From the IMG/VR virus record IMGVR_UViG_3300035698_007774, positions 1 through 23,207 of that record: DNA of 23,207 nt; one strand, given 5' to 3'. A program made the position numbers and the translations under genes. Of the stretch, positions 9,912-17,117 are shown one piece after another (the stretch's first letter is position 1; every line of letters starts with the position of its first letter). The notes beneath the pieces are model-generated. The model was not told where the DNA came from, did not search any database, and saw only the letters and a program-made list of their open reading frames with translations. This stretch comes from a virus.

Positions 9912-10742
9912 ATGACAGAAAAGAATCCATTATTAAGCGGTGCGCCGCGACCAAAATTCAGCATAGTATTACCCAGCCAAGGAGATTATTGGCCAGAAGG
10001 CGCACTAGCGTCCACTGACTCATTATCTGTCTTCAGTTTCTCTGGCCGAGACGAGACATTGCTTCGACGAAGCAATCCTATTTATTTAGGAAGCGTCCTA
10101 GCTGAAATCATTACCCGATGTATTCCCGCAATTAAAGATGTGTGGAGTATGCCTAGATGTGATTTAGACGCCGTGCTAGCAGGTCTTCTTGCGGCCAGTT
10201 ATACTCCGAAGGTCACTCAGACACATCAGTGTCCTCATTGTGAGAGCGACAACCAAGTCTCGATCAATCTGTCAGACCATTTGACCGGTTATCAAGTACC
10301 AGATTATCGGAGACCACTGAACGTTGATGATTTCACTGTGCATTTTCAGCCAGTTAGCTTCCAAGACAATTTTCAACTGTTGAGTGACCAAACCAGAAAA
10401 GAAGCCATCTTAGAGCAATTGAGAGATCCTAAGAAAACCCAAGAACAGAAAGATGAATTAATCAATCAAACTCTAGCAGATATCACTTCCATTAATATTC
10501 GAGCAATCGCAGCAACCGTTGAGAGTGTGGTTATCGATGAGAATCGAGTAACTGATCGAGCACATATTATAGAGTGGTTAGAAGTAACAGAACGGCATGT
10601 GTTTGAAGAAATAAATCAACACAGTAACAACATACTATCAGAATACCGATTACCAATCAAAACTGTCACTTGCGCTAATTGCAATAGCGACTTTGACATC
10701 GAGGTAGATGTTGGTGTTCAGGATTATATCAAGACCAAATAA
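9912..10742 (+). CDS. 26: baseplate hub protein gp26-like
   Basis: The 276-aa protein matches the T4 gp26-type baseplate hub assembly family in its marine-phage form: PSQGDYWPEG near the N-terminus, then DETLLRR, a hydrophobic IITRCIPAIKDVWSMPRCDLDAVLAGLLAASY segment (66-97), and a zinc-ribbon-like pair of CxxC motifs (C107/C110 and C254/C257). In T4, gp26 is needed to build the central hub of the baseplate and is followed by gene 51, as here. It starts with ATG after AGGA and ends in a one-base overlap (TAATG) with the next gene, so the two are translationally coupled. T4 gp26 is shorter (208 aa), so this resembles the larger gp26 of other T4-like phages. Function is by family resemblance. 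Confidence 0.8.
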   Translation: MTEKNPLLSGAPRPKFSIVLPSQGDYWPEGALASTDSLSVFSFSGRDETLLRRSNPIYLGSVLAEIITRCIPAIKDVWSMPRCDLDAVLAGLLAASYTPKVTQTHQCPHCESDNQVSINLSDHLTGYQVPDYRRPLNVDDFTVHFQPVSFQDNFQLLSDQTRKEAILEQLRDPKKTQEQKDELINQTLADITSINIRAIAATVESVVIDENRVTDRAHIIEWLEVTERHVFEEINQHSNNILSEYRLPIKTVTCANCNSDFDIEVDVGVQDYIKTK

Positions 10743-11743
10743 TGAATCCTTCATCACCACCTGATGTATACTTAGACATCACATCAAAAGAATGGAAGAA
10801 CGCAATAGGGTCTCCAAGCAACACTATCGAAATTTGGAGCTTAACCCTATATGACTTAATAGAACTCAAAAACCCAGATGGGCTGAGTAATGGTGCGTCT
10901 ATGATTAATGTTATTCGTCGCAGAGCACCCGCTATCGTTAACCCACATGGGTTAACCGAATCTCAATATCATCAAATAGTAAACAGCTTGTGGTTAGCTA
11001 CTTATGGTAACCGTATGGAATTAACCACAAGGTGTGACCAATGTAAAGAATCAATAGAGTTCGAATATGATTTAGGCAAAAGCATTAATCACATACAGAA
11101 TCTCAGTAGTGAAAAAAGCGCAATGATAGGCGAGCATGAGATTGAATTTTCACCGTCTACGTTCAATGACATGATTGCAGCTTCGTCATCAGCGTATGCA
11201 TTTAATAAGAGTTTGTACACTGTAAGAGAGAATCCCACCATAAACTTTGATGTGCGAAGATTTAGTGAATACCTTCATTCGTCAACCGACTCTGATAGAA
11301 ATATAAAATCAAAACGCATCCTCTCTATTGACAATGAATTAGTTTCTCCAGACGTTGCTGCTCAGTGGATCGATCAATTAGATCAAAAACAGTATGCTCA
11401 ATTAGATACACTGATGACCGCAGGTGATTACTTCTCACAAGAAAAAATCAAATGCCCGGAGTGTAGTTACATCAACACTGTCACCACACGAATGGACCCA
11501 ATTGGACAATTCTATAGTCAGTTAATCAGTACTCCTGATGAAGAATTGCCTGACTTTTTCTCTAGACTTGATCGACAGAAACAAGAAATCAATGATCAAG
11601 CAATGAAATTGTGCTGGTATATGCGAGGCGGGGTTAGTGTCACAGAAATTATGCATATGAATGCCAGTCAGAGACAGGCCATAGAGAAAACTGTAAACGA
11701 TAATATCGAGCTGAGTAAACGCGCTAAGACCCCAATTCTCTAA
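10742..11743 (+). CDS. 51: second gp26-type baseplate protein, probable gp51 (hub assembly)
   Basis: The 333-aa product is a diverged paralogue of its upstream neighbour: an N-terminal helical domain (IEIWSLTLYDLIEL, then VIRRRAPAIVNP), a first CxxC at C98/C101 and a second at C238/C241 (KIKCPECSYINTV). The C-terminal segment AMKLCWYMRGGVSVTEIMHM followed by NASQRQAIEKTV is highly characteristic of gp26/gp51-type hub proteins of T4-like phages. In T4, gene 51 follows gene 26 and acts catalytically in hub assembly, so position favours gp51; the exact split of the gp26/gp51 names between these two genes is inferred. It overlaps the previous gene by one base and ends 64 nt before a strong terminator structure. 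Confidence 0.65.
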   Translation: MNPSSPPDVYLDITSKEWKNAIGSPSNTIEIWSLTLYDLIELKNPDGLSNGASMINVIRRRAPAIVNPHGLTESQYHQIVNSLWLATYGNRMELTTRCDQCKESIEFEYDLGKSINHIQNLSSEKSAMIGEHEIEFSPSTFNDMIAASSSAYAFNKSLYTVRENPTINFDVRRFSEYLHSSTDSDRNIKSKRILSIDNELVSPDVAAQWIDQLDQKQYAQLDTLMTAGDYFSQEKIKCPECSYINTVTTRMDPIGQFYSQLISTPDEELPDFFSRLDRQKQEINDQAMKLCWYMRGGVSVTEIMHMNASQRQAIEKTVNDNIELSKRAKTPIL

Positions 11744-11806
11744 TTGAAAATCAGCTTAGGGCTTCGCCAGCCGCTAATAGTTTTATCAACATTTATTATA
11801 CTCTTC

Positions 11807-11891
11807 GGAGAGCTTTGCTCTCCAGTTGTTGTTTGTTATTCGCCTACTCGCAAGCTCGTGCTCATAACAAACACAACATTTTAATTCTTTT
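11807..11891 (+). terminator. double-hairpin terminator of the gp26/gp51 operon
   Basis: The first hairpin is a perfect 7-bp stem, GGAGAGC (11807-11813) with GCTCTCC (11817-11823), loop TTT, followed by T-rich sequence. Immediately after it, TGTTTGTTAT (11830-11839) pairs with ATAACAAACA (11864-11873) and GTTG (11825-11828) with CAAC (11874-11877) around one bulged T. This long stem is followed by ATTTTAATTCTTTT (11878-11891). The plus strand therefore has a strong terminator between gene 51 and the structured region. Confidence 0.8.
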
Positions 11892-11943
11892 CAGTTTATA
11901 TCAATCTTTTTATTGTTCTTATTAAATGAATGTCAAGTAAAGG

Positions 11944-12599
11944 TCTTATATTAATCATTCTTTAGATGGTTGGTCTCATGATTCGCCCGTTGCCGGGTCA
12001 AATCATGATGGACGCACGTCTATAAGAAATATTCTTTGAGTGGATGTGGTCGGTTTAGCAGAGATTGTACCGTCAGTCTAAGATTATAAACTGGTGCAAC
12101 AGTACTCGGAGGCGGTTGGCCTGTACCTCCTACTCCTACGATTCGTGTAGATAAAGCGCACACAGAAGAGTCTGTGATTTAGTTGTATATCCTAGGGGAA
12201 ACCTTTCATCCCTTTGCGTCATAATAGGATACGCATTATCAGAGCCGGAGCTTTTCTCCGTAGCCACTCAGGGGTGCGTTCCTGGCGACGGCTCTTTCCA
12301 TACCAACGGGAGCAATAATTCGGTCTAAACTACCACCGAATATTACCTGCAGTTGCGTTCTTTTTCAAGCAGAGCTGCTGTCATTTGAGCTAATTAAGCC
12401 CTAATCTTGCTGCGGTGAAGACAATTATCGGAGTGTCTTCGTCAACCTTCTGGGATATTCCTATGAGGCAGCATATGTAATGTGTCGAGTCGGACTAACG
12501 AACTCTATGACAGGCCGGTCATGGCCAAGTGGTGAACTCTATTTTGAGGCGAGTACCAAAAACTCTATTTTGAGGCGAGTACCGATTAATGCTGCTTGG
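11944..12599 (+). ncRNA. large structured noncoding RNA, unassigned
   Basis: No credible gene lies between 11744 and 12650. The region instead holds many nested helices: TCTTATA/TATAAGA (11944-11950/12021-12027) enclosing TCATGATT/AATCATGA (11976-11983/12001-12008) and CCCG/CGGG; TTGTACC/GGTGCAA (12065-12071/12093-12099); GGAGG/CCTCC (12108-12112/12126-12130); CACAGA/TCTGTG (12161-12166/12171-12176); TATCCTA/TAGGATA (12188-12194/12225-12231), crossed by GCGT/ACGC as a possible pseudoknot; AGAGC/GCTCT (12241-12245/12291-12295) around CGGAG/CTCCG; and a 10-bp stem with one bulge at 12314-12324/12335-12344. A 3' domain is closed by CAAGCAG/CTGCTTG (12366-12372/12592-12598), containing TGCTGC/GCAGCA (12408-12413/12468-12473) and GAAGACA/TGTCTTC (12417-12423/12434-12440). 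Several stems contain or extend through G-U pairs valid only on the plus strand, favouring that strand, although one loop reads GCAA (GNRA) on the minus strand. Size and phage setting recall GOLLD or ROOL RNAs, but membership is not shown. No clear promoter was found. Confidence 0.6.
12535..12583 (+). repeat. 23-bp direct repeat, two copies
   Basis: Two identical 23-bp copies (12535-12557 and 12561-12583) begin AACTCTATTTTGAGG and end GAGTACC, separated by AAA (26-bp period). Each contains ACTC...GAGT and can fold into a small hairpin; the first copy can extend with GGT (12531-12533) pairing ACC (12555-12557). A further AACTCTAT lies at 12501-12508. They form the 3' end of the structured region. 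Confidence 0.9.
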
Positions 12600-12649
12600 T
12601 GCTGTAGGTATTGAATAGGTGATGTGTAGGTTCTGTAGATATATTACTA

Positions 12650-13171
12650 TTATGCTGTATTCGGTTGGTGTATGTCAATAATAATCTGACGATTATTATT
12701 CCAGAACGCGTAATACTCGCATATATACCAAGTTGATTTTGAATTAATATGCGCATACTTAATATAGTTAAGTCCTGGGGTAAGTCTTGAATCAGAAAAA
12801 GCAATGAAACTGCCTTTTCTGTTAAATTTCATTGCTAGTAGATTAATATCGCCGGGATCAGCGCTGATTAATAGCTGACTGATCCACTGGTCAATTGTTT
12901 TACACTCTGTGGTTAATAATTGATGAAACGGAAAGTCTTGATAGAATTTAGCTTCAATGTTTAGTAACTGAAGATCTTCACCTGGAATAATGTCGCCTTT
13001 GAAATGTCGAATCTTACTCTCATCAAGAGACTGTTTACGTGAAGCGTTGGTTCCGCCAACATACGCACCACTACCTGAAGTTTTTAAGAAGACAGAACCG
13101 AAAAGTTCGCTTAAATGTGCGGCTATAGCTCGTTCCCACCCGCTACCTTTTGTTTTTTGTGGACTAGGCAT
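12650..13171 (-). CDS. PD-(D/E)XK nuclease, Holliday-junction-resolvase-like
   Basis: The 173-aa protein carries the ordered motifs of small PD-(D/E)XK resolvase-type nucleases: a first Glu in KGSGWERAIAAHLSELFG (E13), SGSGAYVGG (32-40), D60 in FKGDIIPG, and the catalytic ExK in LLNIEAKFYQDFPFHQLL (E73, K75). A conserved-looking AMKFNRKGSFIAFSD segment follows. T4 resolves junctions with an unrelated enzyme, gp49 (endonuclease VII), so in this phage the gene could be an alternative resolvase or a structure-specific nuclease (inference). It is last in the operon after gp55, gp47, gp46 and an 87-aa gene, a natural place for a recombination enzyme; the start ATG is 2 nt after the preceding stop. 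About 65 nt downstream of its stop the structured RNA region ends on the opposite strand; I see no terminator in 12600-12649. Confidence 0.7.
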   Translation of the reverse strand: MPSPQKTKGSGWERAIAAHLSELFGSVFLKTSGSGAYVGGTNASRKQSLDESKIRHFKGDIIPGEDLQLLNIEAKFYQDFPFHQLLTTECKTIDQWISQLLISADPGDINLLAMKFNRKGSFIAFSDSRLTPGLNYIKYAHINSKSTWYICEYYAFWNNNRQIIIDIHQPNTA

Positions 13172-13438: not shown

Positions 13439-15214
13439 TTATGCTTCTTCAATCTCAGTGTCAGTGGAGAATTCGGTAAACCCTCCACTTTTGATAACCC
13501 ATAGAATGTTGTTCACTCTACTACTTAGTTCATCTCGGTGACTAATAAGCCAAATGTTCTTGTCTCGTTCTCGACTCATACGTTTGAGAATAGACACGGC
13601 ACTCTCTACACCATTAGAATCGAGACCACTGTCAATCATCTCGTCTACAAACATCACATTAATAGGTTGGAACAAGTTTTCCCAAACATCACGGAATGCC
13701 CAACTCATACTGAGGATTAATCTGTTACGCTCTCCTCGACTTAAATTGTCAAAGTCTAATTCTCTTCCCAAGTCTTGAATCTGGACAGTAAGATCATTTT
13801 GAAATTCTACTTCATGCGGTAATCCAAGATGACTCAAATAATGTAGCAATCTGCTGTTGAGGAAACTCAAATTCTGATCAATGATTCTTTTTCGAATAAA
13901 GCTGTCTTTACTGGTAAGCAATTTATACAAGAATTCTTGGTGATCTAGTACTCGCTGAAGACTGTTAATGGCATCATAGTCAACCTCCTGAATTGAGTGA
14001 GTAAGCATTTCTTCAATCTGTTCTGTATATGGGTCTTCTGCTCTAGCAGACCTTTCCAGTTGATCAGACAGCGTGTTCATTGTAGTCTTGTGGTCGTATG
14101 CTTCTTCTACAGAGTCGTAGACAGTGTCAGACTGCTTGATAGATTGATATTCAGTTAGAAGATGTTGAATTTGGGTTTCTTCATCTGTCAGAACTTGGAT
14201 GGCCGCTGATGCTTCTTCGATTAATTCTTTCTTGGCGGTTTCGAGTTCCTGTTGTTTAGTATCGTGTAAGGTTTGCCCGCAGCTATGACATGTATGATCG
14301 ACGATATTAGATAATTCATTATTATACCGCTCTAAATCTCTCTCGTGTTTTGCAACGTCGCGCTTAATTCTCTTTATAGATTCGAGCAGAGTGTCTCTCT
14401 CTCGAAGTGCTTGAATGGCCGTCTTATTCGCATTGTGTGTTTCGATCTCATTTTCGATATCCACTTTGGATAATTGATGTAACCTAGCAGTCAGTTGTTG
14501 AGTCTCTTCCTCATGACTACGCTGCCAAGCACGTTGTTTTAATTTTAAACTAGCAATCTGCTTATCAAATCTAGCATTAGATTCACGGATGCTTTTGATT
14601 TGATACTCTTCTTCTGTTTTTAGTGATCGAGTGTCTTTGATTTGTTCTTTAAGAGTTTCAGCCTTTTCACTAAGCTGAGTAATTCCCATCAATTGTTCGA
14701 TAATTTCTCGTTGATCACTGCTTTTGAGACTCAAAAATGGAGTAGTATATGTGTTTAGTGCGACTATGTGTTTGAACATTTCGTGACTCATGTTCAATAA
14801 CTCATTTATCGACTGCTGAGTGGCTCGACTGTCTCCTTGACTGTTATCATCGTCAGGAGTCTGTTCATGTTCGCCAATAAAGAACCGCAAGACATTAGGA
14901 CCACGACCTCGCTCAATGCGATAATCGATCCCATTCTTCTCAAAATCAACAGTTACTAACATACCTTTGCTGTTGGTTTTATTGATCAAATTCTGTTTAC
15001 GGATATTTGTGAGAGCGTTACCGTATAAGGCGTAACTAACGGCGTTCACAAGCGCACTTTTCCCCACTCCGTTCCTGGAATTTCCTTCTCCATTAGTAAC
15101 GTCTTGGTTGTCACCTAGGACCAGAATCAATTGATTCTGATCAAATTTGACTGATTGAGTAACATTACCGATGGAAATAAAGTTCTTGATAGTGACGTTT
15201 TTAATTCGAAACAT
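13439..15214 (-). CDS. 46: recombination endonuclease subunit gp46 (SbcC/Rad50-like)
   Basis: This is the ATPase subunit of the T4 gp46-gp47 complex, the phage counterpart of Rad50-Mre11/SbcCD, which processes DNA ends for recombination-dependent replication and helps degrade host DNA. The 591-aa protein (T4 gp46 is 560 aa) has a Walker A motif (GEGNSRNGVGKSA, 42-54), two long coiled-coil arms, a zinc hook CHSC at 309-312, an ABC signature LSRGERNR (491-498), Walker B INVMFVDEMID (518-528) and an H-loop ISHRDE (557-562). All motifs are intact. The start codon overlaps the gp47 stop by one base (TAATG), giving coupled translation and balanced subunits. The acidic last residues (STDTEIEEA) lie against the start of the next gene. 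Confidence 0.97.
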   Translation of the reverse strand: MFRIKNVTIKNFISIGNVTQSVKFDQNQLILVLGDNQDVTNGEGNSRNGVGKSALVNAVSYALYGNALTNIRKQNLINKTNSKGMLVTVDFEKNGIDYRIERGRGPNVLRFFIGEHEQTPDDDNSQGDSRATQQSINELLNMSHEMFKHIVALNTYTTPFLSLKSSDQREIIEQLMGITQLSEKAETLKEQIKDTRSLKTEEEYQIKSIRESNARFDKQIASLKLKQRAWQRSHEEETQQLTARLHQLSKVDIENEIETHNANKTAIQALRERDTLLESIKRIKRDVAKHERDLERYNNELSNIVDHTCHSCGQTLHDTKQQELETAKKELIEEASAAIQVLTDEETQIQHLLTEYQSIKQSDTVYDSVEEAYDHKTTMNTLSDQLERSARAEDPYTEQIEEMLTHSIQEVDYDAINSLQRVLDHQEFLYKLLTSKDSFIRKRIIDQNLSFLNSRLLHYLSHLGLPHEVEFQNDLTVQIQDLGRELDFDNLSRGERNRLILSMSWAFRDVWENLFQPINVMFVDEMIDSGLDSNGVESAVSILKRMSRERDKNIWLISHRDELSSRVNNILWVIKSGGFTEFSTDTEIEEA

Positions 15215-16224
15215 TAAAGGTGCCTATAAATGTCAAGCAGTATGTCTCTGCTGTAAGCTTCACTAGAAATCTGACTTAACTGGTTCTGTACAATACTATC
15301 TACGCTTTCAAAAACAATTTCTCCGTCATTTGAAAATTCATGTTCTTCTAGTTTAGCGGGAATGAGACTAAGTTCTCGGAGCTGATATTGACTTACAAAA
15401 GTCTCTTTAATATAGTTAGCTTCTTCATAATTGATTTCAATATCTAAACTGATTCTAGCATAAGTATTCTCGCCCAAGTAATGATCTGGATTAGCTAATA
15501 AGTCGCTGATTTTTGCGTTTCGGTATTTTGGAGCACCGGGCCAAGCGTGATATTCATGACCGGCATTCCAGTCAATAATCGCTAATCCTCGTTCATCATC
15601 CCATACGTCACTGTAATTATGAGGGAAAGCGTTTCCCATATAAACTATGTTGCCGCTCTCTTGTCGTTTATGAAAATGACCAGTGAACACCGTACCACAA
15701 TCTTGGAAATGAACTCGTTGTAACTCGCCATGATCTGGCATCTGCACTCGAGCGTTCATAAAAAAGGATGGGAGCTCAAAGTGTCCAAACACGTAGTCAC
15801 TCTTCAATTTACGCATTTGACGGTATTCGTCGCCAATTAGCCAAGGAACAAAGGTACACCCATCTACTGTGGTAATATCGTTGTAGAAATGTACATTAGG
15901 GTACCTGCGGATAAACTCAATACTGTTATAACTCCGGTTATCACGGTAGTATTCATCATGGTTACCAGGAATAACGTGAACGTTATCAAATGCTGAGTTT
16001 AGCTTTTCTAAGGCACGAATACTATAGTTAAGAGTGGCAACATTAATGCTACTTCGATGATGATGCCAATCGCCGAGAAATAATAGAGTGGATATACCTT
16101 CTCTCTGTCCTACTTCACACGTCCATTCAATGAAATCTAAACAATCCTGATTGAATATGTGACTGTTGCTTTTATTACCAAGATGTAGATCAGTAATAGC
16201 TATAGCACGGTCAAATAAACTCAT
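15214..16224 (-). CDS. 47: recombination endonuclease subunit gp47 (SbcD/Mre11-like)
   Basis: This is the metallophosphoesterase nuclease subunit that pairs with gp46. The 336-aa length equals T4 gp47 (339 aa) within a few residues. All dimetal-site motifs are visible in order: DLHLGN (D12, H14), GDWHHHR (51-57), GNHDE (87-91), GHFE (147-150) and GHFHKR (182-187). The C-terminal part, with the capping region and YIKETFVSQYQLRELSLIP, is typical of the family. It starts in a 4-base ATGA overlap with the gp55 stop and itself overlaps gp46 by one base, so gp55, gp47 and gp46 form one tightly coupled operon. Expression would follow the gp55 promoter. Confidence 0.97.
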   Translation of the reverse strand: MSLFDRAIAITDLHLGNKSNSHIFNQDCLDFIEWTCEVGQREGISTLLFLGDWHHHRSSINVATLNYSIRALEKLNSAFDNVHVIPGNHDEYYRDNRSYNSIEFIRRYPNVHFYNDITTVDGCTFVPWLIGDEYRQMRKLKSDYVFGHFELPSFFMNARVQMPDHGELQRVHFQDCGTVFTGHFHKRQESGNIVYMGNAFPHNYSDVWDDERGLAIIDWNAGHEYHAWPGAPKYRNAKISDLLANPDHYLGENTYARISLDIEINYEEANYIKETFVSQYQLRELSLIPAKLEEHEFSNDGEIVFESVDSIVQNQLSQISSEAYSRDILLDIYRHL

Positions 16225-17117
16225 TGTTTCCCTTTTCTTATGGTCAATTGATCTTGAAATTTGTCAAAAAATTCTTTATTAGTTAACCCGTAGGCTGCGG
16301 AATTATCAGCCTCGTTCTGTCTAGCATGACTGGGAGTCATGTTATTGATTTCTAAGATATCATCCCGAATGCCTTGATTTCTCTTTTCAATATTGTGAAC
16401 TCTAGTAAAGCAATTAGAAAGAGTTGCGGTAAAATATGCGAAAGCGTTATTACTCTTACTCTCGTCAAACTGTAGACCGGCTTCGCATAACTGTAATTGA
16501 GCCTGTGATTGCATCTCACTATTGTAAGAATAATTACGCCAGTTCCATTTTGTGCCATACCTCTGACATAGCTTGGAAAACATTCGTCCTAGCGATTCTG
16601 TTATTCGTCCATGATCTAAACTAAAGTACCCATTATGTACGCCGCCGGTCCAATGACTGCGACCTACGAGTCGCAAATTGTCGTCCTCATCAAATCGATA
16701 ATGATGATATGGCATAAAATTCAGTTTTAAATATTTATCCTTAACCGTTTTAGGGTTCTTCTTTCTGCCTGGTGCTAGCGGGATATGATCAAATGTGTAA
16801 ATTCGTATCACTAATTCAGTTTTATCAAAGCTGTCAGGACTGACTGCGAATGCGTCTTGCTTGCCTTCGATACCGTTCTCTTGAGCATGTTCCCAGGCAT
16901 TGCGGCCTAATCTCTTAGCGCGATTTAGTCTTGCTTCGTTGATGTTTTCTTCAGTAATAGACGCTAACACATCCGGCAATTCTTCGTCTATCGCACTTAA
17001 AATAAGGTCATAGTCTCTATCAGTGTCATCATCCTGAAAGCAACTATAGGAATTTTTACTTCGATGTATTTCTAATAACAAGTCTCTGTTGTTTAGGTAG
17101 TTCTTTTTCTTTTTCAT
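16221..17117 (-). CDS. 55: late-transcription sigma factor gp55 with central insertion
   Basis: T4 gp55 is the minimal sigma factor that, with clamp gp45 and co-activator gp33, directs host RNA polymerase to late promoters. This 298-aa protein keeps the gp55 hallmarks: an N-terminal KNYLNNRDLLLEI (5-17) like T4's YVNNKELLQAI, and a sigma region 2-like block at about 171-255 with NNAFAYFTATLSNCFTRVHN (223-242) matching T4's [22 protein letters not shown]. Between them lies about 140 residues absent from T4 gp55 (185 aa): roughly 25-168, including PLAPGRKKNPKTVKDKYLKLNF and a His/Trp/Gly-rich GRSHWTGGVHNGYFSLDHG. The C-terminal NKEFFDKFQDQL could be the clamp-binding tail (inference). It leads the gp55-gp47-gp46 operon and has a late-type promoter of its own. 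The gp55 call is good; the insert's role is unknown. Confidence 0.82.
   Translation of the reverse strand: MKKKKNYLNNRDLLLEIHRSKNSYSCFQDDDTDRDYDLILSAIDEELPDVLASITEENINEARLNRAKRLGRNAWEHAQENGIEGKQDAFAVSPDSFDKTELVIRIYTFDHIPLAPGRKKNPKTVKDKYLKLNFMPYHHYRFDEDDNLRLVGRSHWTGGVHNGYFSLDHGRITESLGRMFSKLCQRYGTKWNWRNYSYNSEMQSQAQLQLCEAGLQFDESKSNNAFAYFTATLSNCFTRVHNIEKRNQGIRDDILEINNMTPSHARQNEADNSAAYGLTNKEFFDKFQDQLTIRKGKQ

Follow-up and report, generated by a model that had tools for sequence, protein, structure and literature searches.

A structured RNA family at a fixed genomic locus in large T4-like myoviruses

The locus described here raises the question of what fills a gene-free gap between two convergent operons of a T4-like virus. 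The window, by which we mean the whole 23,207-base stretch of DNA that was analysed, is a complete viral record with T4-like structural and replication genes. The gap lies between a baseplate hub-like gene and a nuclease gene, and the features that define its surroundings are as follows.

In the window: major head protein and portal genes, part of the T4-like structural set
9912–11743, plus strand: two baseplate-hub paralogues
10742–11743, plus strand: T4 baseplate hub-like gene (gp26/gp51 family), left flank (Pfam PF12322, E 5e-9; PHROG 150)
11807–11823, plus strand: predicted intrinsic terminator of the convergent gp51-like gene (from sequence)
12650–13171, minus strand: PDDEXK or Holliday-junction-resolvase-like nuclease gene (HJR), right flank (Pfam PF24608, E 6e-19; PHROG 244)
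13439–17117, minus strand: gp46, gp47 and gp55 homologues, codirectional with the RNA described below (PHROGs 77, 12791 and 234; Metallophos in Pfam)

A preliminary description of this DNA had reported that the gap holds no credible gene, and we agree, as the longest frame fully enclosed by 11744–12649 encodes 47 aa. A 72-aa minus-strand frame (12586–12804) overlaps the right end of the gap. The terminator at 11807–11823 probably ends the gp51-like gene before the RNA is reached, and would shield the RNA from gp51 transcription. At the far left of the window, a homing-endonuclease-like gene (31–1569; PHROG 3339, E 1e-96) is found beside the major head protein gene. No tRNA genes were found in the 23-kb window.

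Relatives and the strand of the RNA

When the gap was used as a nucleotide BLAST query against phage records, only chance matches were returned. Because these DNA searches gave nothing, relatives were sought via the flanking nuclease. Several of the relatives found in this way have a gap of 390–745 nt at the same place, with short sequence matches inside it. The motif common to those gaps, TTGTATCTNTTTCACAGAG, forms the P1 loop of the structure described below, and a search for it returned at least 120 viral-contig stretches, a count that is a lower bound. As relatives were picked by this exact motif, it is partly by construction that the P1 loop does not vary. The outer stem of P1, as well as P2, P3, P0 and the pseudoknot, are unaffected by this selection. 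Closer variants came from two further search patterns; one of these variants is L149, which has a P1 almost identical to that of the window. Structure was assessed with RNAalifold in 67 non-redundant relatives and with a 52-sequence core alignment, and 54 relatives were used for the X repeats. The covariance models R1 (core) and R2 (3′ domain) were both built without the window.

The preliminary description had placed the RNA on the plus strand, reasoning that G-U pairs in or extending several of its stems work only there. Comparison of the two strands points the other way. The folding z relative to shuffled sequences was −4.1 for the minus strand and −1.5 for the plus strand, and 2 of 20 shuffles folded at least as well as the plus strand of the gap. 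Across the 67 non-redundant relatives, RNAalifold gave −69.5 for the minus strand versus −58.4 for the plus strand. The minus-strand consensus pairs in the same relatives include 516 G-U cells versus 98 A-C cells, and G-U pairing, on which the plus-strand claim had been based, favours the minus strand. The tetraloops of P4 and P5 are of the GNRA type 47 times on the minus strand versus once on the plus strand. As the GNRA loops and the G-U pairs agree, we conclude that the gap RNA is on the minus strand, where it runs antisense to gp51 and in the same direction as gp55-gp47-gp46.

The helices are present on both strands, and every helix string quoted in the preliminary description was found where it had been placed. 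However, the idea of a plus-strand RNA, with GOLLD or ROOL as possible relatives, is contradicted by the G-U and GNRA tests, by model matches that are significant only on the minus strand and by the lack of an Rfam match, and we regard it as extremely improbable. The stem TTGTACC/GGTGCAA was a plus-only reading, and the RNA strand forms that stem differently.

Core structure and its covariation

R1 matched the minus strand of the window at 12287–12382 (29.1 bits, E 3e-6) and at 12080–12135 (25.2 bits, E 3e-5), and the next-best match had an E value of 0.5. In the window, the core elements P1, P2, pseudoknot, P3 and P0 follow one another in order on a single strand, and the two R1 matches are split by an insertion. 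The features of the RNA upstream of its 3′ domain are listed here from 5′ to 3′.

11900–12640, minus strand: structured RNA, approximate extent, with the 5′ end near 12640 (three covariance-model matches in family order; gene-free gap)
12417–12440, minus strand: 5′-domain hairpin GAAGACACUCCGAUAAUUGUCUUC (same loop and compensatory stem changes in L006, L008 and L149–L151)
12349–12378, minus strand: P1 hairpin GCAGCUCUGCUUGAAAAAGAACGCAACUGC (R1 match; outer stem covaries at 3/4 pairs in 52 relatives)
12312–12347, minus strand: P2 stem-loop of about 12 bp (R1 match; covarying stem)
12303–12309, minus strand: 5′ strand of the pseudoknot, CCGUUGG, with partner CCAAC at 12115–12119 (5 covarying pairs)
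12136–12302, minus strand: insertion unique to the window, within which separate stems are predicted (absent from all aligned relatives)
12133–12136, minus strand: 5′ strand of the closing helix P0, GGAG, with partner CUCU at 12060–12063 (4/4 pairs covary in relatives)
12108–12130, minus strand: P3 hairpin GGAGGUACAGGCCAACCGCCUCC, whose loop contains the 3′ strand of the pseudoknot (R1 match; 98.7% of cells paired, 4 pairs covary)
12067–12105, minus strand: P4, enlarged in the window and a short GNRA-loop hairpin in many relatives (fold; GNRA count)

The 52-sequence core alignment contains 32 pairs, including the pseudoknot, and 94.9% of the cells are paired versus 75.6% after shuffling. The core covariation score in these sequences is 0.491 versus 0.163 for shuffled alignments, and slid versions reached at most 0.151. 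Covariation across homologous intergenic regions had been proposed as a check on the structure, and 22 of the 32 core pairs were found to have compensatory changes on both sides in the 52 relatives. P4 carries a GNRA loop in 27/52 relatives when read on the RNA strand and in none when read on the other strand.

The pseudoknot has the general form CCG-NNNNN paired with the P3 loop. Its helix is at least 5 bp long in 51/52 relatives and averages 5.77 bp within a molecule versus 3.87 bp (sd 0.13) with partners swapped between molecules. The preliminary description had suggested that GGTTGG at 12114–12119 could pair with CCAAC at 12303–12307; this pairing is real, and covaries across relatives as the pseudoknot. 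Two of its other stems were also recovered, GAAGACA/TGTCTTC as the 12417–12440 hairpin common to L006, L008 and L149–L151, and CCCG/CGGG (11978–12006) as the conserved hairpin P5. The helix CAAGCAG/CTGCTTG (12366–12372/12592–12598), which had been proposed to close the 3′ domain, is unsupported, and its left strand is inside the conserved P1 (12349–12378). The helix 12188–12194/12225–12231, named as part of a possible pseudoknot, falls inside the insertion found only in the window. Overall, a large, ornate and conserved noncoding RNA with a pseudoknot and covarying helices between convergent operons was correctly recognised, on the wrong strand.

A 23-nt direct repeat (AACTCTATTTTGAGGCGAGTACC on the plus strand) is present almost in tandem in the 5′ part of the RNA, at 12535–12557 and 12561–12583 of the window. 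It was not seen in the relatives that were read.

A ribozyme or RNA-processing RNA would fit a core that is compact and pseudoknotted and whose P1 loop is strongly conserved. However, there was no match to an Rfam ribozyme, no conserved cleavage site was seen and the P1 loop owes its invariance in part to the way in which relatives were selected, leaving this explanation very improbable.

Genomic position and expression

More than a hundred aquatic viruses carry this RNA at one shared position in their genomes, as do large cultured phages that infect E. coli, Pseudomonas and their relatives. Homologues of window proteins are found on both sides, in the same order, at 126 of the 136 motif loci listed. 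Among these loci, the hub gene is on the left and the right side includes gp46 (105), gp47 (76), gp55 (51) or HJR (38). The RNA is antisense to the hub gene, and between it and gp46/gp47/gp55, in nearly all carriers listed and in the window. Immediately upstream of the RNA in L149, L150 and L151, and on the same strand, is a gene that, as read from its sequence, resembles a GIY-YIG or Seg-type homing endonuclease, and related sequence is near the RNA in several other loci.

Three exact matches to the motif were found in bacterial genomes, which is about chance level (an estimated 7 expected in 257 Gb). The only one convincingly supported by the core model is in Terasakiella pusilla, where positions 2826–2913 of a contig (L156) that also contains integrase- and resolvase-like genes match the RNA core with an E value of 3e-10. 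It may be a remnant, or else a copy that is mobile and lies outside the T4-like phages.

A second, very strongly conserved structured element was found at the same locus in sister phages, with the hub gene on one side and HJR and gp46 on the other. It was located as follows.

L009 3447–4172; L010 5559–6284; L011 5556–6203; L170–L225: second element

An exact motif identified it in 56 viral contigs, 22 of them non-redundant, and its consensus fold has 99 pairs. It matched neither Rfam nor R1, and is apparently a different RNA class.

Among cultured phages, a gap of approximately 680–840 nt without annotated genes is present at the same position in 121Q, PBECO4, CBB, GAP32, BF, XaC1 and Munch, and small hypothetical genes are annotated over the gap in Kaldavass and PA5oct. 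The best R1 matches fell within the gap and had the expected orientation in BF (E 0.0024), Kaldavass (0.003), GAP32 (0.0032), CBB (0.0085), PA5oct (0.02), 121Q (0.027) and Munch (0.036); each of these matches is weak alone, and the assignment rests partly on synteny. The copies in the isolates agree in position, strand, the twin X element and the pseudoknot (GUUGC/GCAAC, GUUAC/GUAAC, GUUGU/ACAAC), consistent with 121Q, CBB, GAP32, BF, Munch, Kaldavass and PA5oct carrying diverged copies of the RNA at the same locus. R1 gave no significant match in the gap of XaC1, RaK2, Phosso, Atu_ph07 or Vibrio phage 2.275.O. The XaC1 gap aligns by eye with the other isolate gaps.

Most of the matched isolates share a TATAAT box, which in PA5oct is part of TTGACA-N17-TATAAT, and a terminator with a covarying stem is found 3′ of the core. 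A sigma-70-type −10 box together with an intrinsic terminator suggests that the RNA is transcribed by the host polymerase from early infection. The window has a candidate promoter in the corresponding place.

12649–12678, minus strand: putative sigma-70-like promoter TTGACA-N18-CATAAT (11/12 positions), over the end of the HJR gene and just upstream of the RNA (consensus match only)

Sigma-70-like promoters were not enriched upstream of the RNA in metagenomic relatives (9.56 versus 9.48 for shuffles). In L088 (6935–7068), the RNA is inverted relative to the flanking genes and is preceded by TTGACA-N18-TATACT. As it is inverted there along with a promoter-like sequence, the RNA appears to behave as an autonomous gene.

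The RNA is codirectional with gp55-gp47-gp46 in nearly all carriers listed, directly behind HJR or gp46 in many, and convergent with gp26/gp51, as would be the case if it were a 3′ untranslated region of gp55-gp47-gp46, or if it served as antisense or insulator between two convergent operons. However, in 121Q, CBB, BF and GAP32 an EndoVII gene on the opposite strand separates gp46 from the RNA, which in those isolates follows its own −10 box. Given also the inversion in L088 and a structure far beyond the needs of an insulator, we consider an element acting in cis distinctly unlikely.

The twin X element and comparison with known RNAs

R2 matched the minus strand of the window at 11948–12059 (26.1 bits, E 0.0023; next match, E 1). 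The 3′ domain that it describes is made up of two modules, CUC-X and AUCU-X, that flank the hairpin P5, and the window has both.

12031–12037, minus strand: X copy A, AAAGAAU after CUC (R2 match)
11978–12006, minus strand: P5 hairpin with a GCAA (GNRA) tetraloop (R2 match; covariation; GNRA count)
11957–11963, minus strand: X copy B, AAAGAAU after AUCU (R2 match)

The two X copies are identical within the molecule in 46/54 relatives, and share 6.61 of 7 positions within molecules versus 4.95 (sd 0.12) for pairs shuffled between phages. X itself differs between phages, being AAAGAAU in the window, CGUCAAG in 121Q and Munch, and CGUCAG in CBB, GAP32 and BF. No complement of X was found within the RNA. 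X or its complement was not enriched near gene starts (13 versus 11.4), and showed no clear enrichment overall in the flanking phage DNA (113 versus 94, sd 10). As the X copies are identical rather than complementary, we infer that both would meet the same partner.

With moderate confidence, we favour the view that the gap RNA, which belongs to an RNA family found widely among large T4-like myoviruses, is a stand-alone, trans-acting scaffold that uses X to dock a partner. It would be a noncoding RNA transcribed by the host polymerase from early infection, in which P1, P2, the pseudoknot, P3, P0 and the GNRA hairpin P4 form a folded scaffold that acts in trans. The two X elements, identical within a phage and different between phages, would dock the same partner twice, most simply if X base-pairs with an RNA, of the host or the phage, that likewise varies from system to system. 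More tentatively, and with considerable doubt, we suggest a previously undescribed RNA-based function common to T4-like jumbo phages of one very large clade, where a conserved scaffold would carry a duplicated, phage-specific recognition sequence that pairs with host or phage RNA. On this view the locus would be a dedicated RNA slot, filled in sister phages by a second, unrelated RNA class.

X sequences that are identical within and different between phages are also a property of plasmid iterons, and the RNA has a fixed place beside gp46/gp47. The locus might on these grounds be a replication origin next to recombination genes, with the transcript as a structured primer RNA and the X repeats as iteron-like protein sites. 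However, there are only two 7-nt copies, each part of an RNA module beside a covarying hairpin, the signal comes mainly from RNA secondary structure, in which the G-U pairs and GNRA loops are strand-specific, and the RNA is inverted in L088. An origin therefore seems improbable.

GOLLD forms a 14-mer RNA cage and is often found beside tRNA genes. An RNA-only particle of the GOLLD or ROOL kind, with a structural or storage role and with GNRA loops, pseudoknots and X as contacts between copies, would fit the similar size, the phage origin, the conserved core with a variable periphery and the many GNRA loops of the gap RNA, and both GOLLD and ROOL form RNA cages (PMC12286853). However, the gap RNA has no sequence or covariance kinship with either and is not near tRNAs, and X does not explain self-assembly, as its copies are identical instead of complementary and no partner for them lies within the RNA. 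We consider such a particle possible but unlikely, and continue to prefer a scaffold acting in trans.

Large phage RNAs, GOLLD and ROOL among them, are abundant but unexplained, and few are found in convenient laboratory phages. The gap RNA represents a real and widespread family that belongs among the large structured phage RNAs, and no description of it was found in a literature search that mostly excluded subscription journals; the papers on CBB and MIJ3 make no mention of a noncoding RNA. As copies are present in E. coli jumbo phages that have relatives among the isolates grown on K-12, the RNA is directly accessible to experiments on transcription and to deletion, probing and pull-down. 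A family at a fixed genomic address also raises the question of what its twin variable elements recognise.

No Rfam model matched the window, and nothing above chance was found in the gap at E values up to 10. Of the Rfam families that had been proposed for comparison, GOLLD, ROOL, OLE and HEARO had no match in the window, and the first three also had none in relatives (at the gathering score) or in 121Q (at E up to 10). Identity with GOLLD, ROOL or OLE was rejected for lack of a covariance-model match, as was the suggested kinship with GOLLD or ROOL. The alternative offered with it, a new class, was borne out by a conserved RNA that has no described family, except for a small piece in some members. 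GOLLD resembles the gap RNA in being a large phage RNA with a conserved and a variable part and an obscure function (PMC12286853), but differs in its locus and in the tRNAs that the gap RNA lacks nearby. Similarly, ROOL is a large phage RNA of about 600–660 nt with pseudoknots, but it too has no covariance-model match here, and the gap RNA is not near tRNAs. An 800-nt noncoding transcript is the most abundant phage transcript of ICP1 (PMC7567579), and like the gap RNA it comes from a gene-free phage gap of similar size. Homology to it was rejected, as R1 found nothing significant in that region of ICP1.

The exception is Polynucleobacter-1 (RF01718), which had no match in the window but matched in the same gap and on the same strand, 20–35 nt 5′ of the core, in L001, L051, L058 and L124. 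The published listing gives it as a candidate found in Burkholderiales and fresh water, and not as part of a phage RNA (PMC2864571). The 141-nt Rfam model covers none of the conserved core. As its matches are directly 5′ of that core, we conclude that Polynucleobacter-1 is a 5′ domain of this larger phage RNA in some lineages, and that the family described here supplies the missing rest of this orphan Rfam motif.
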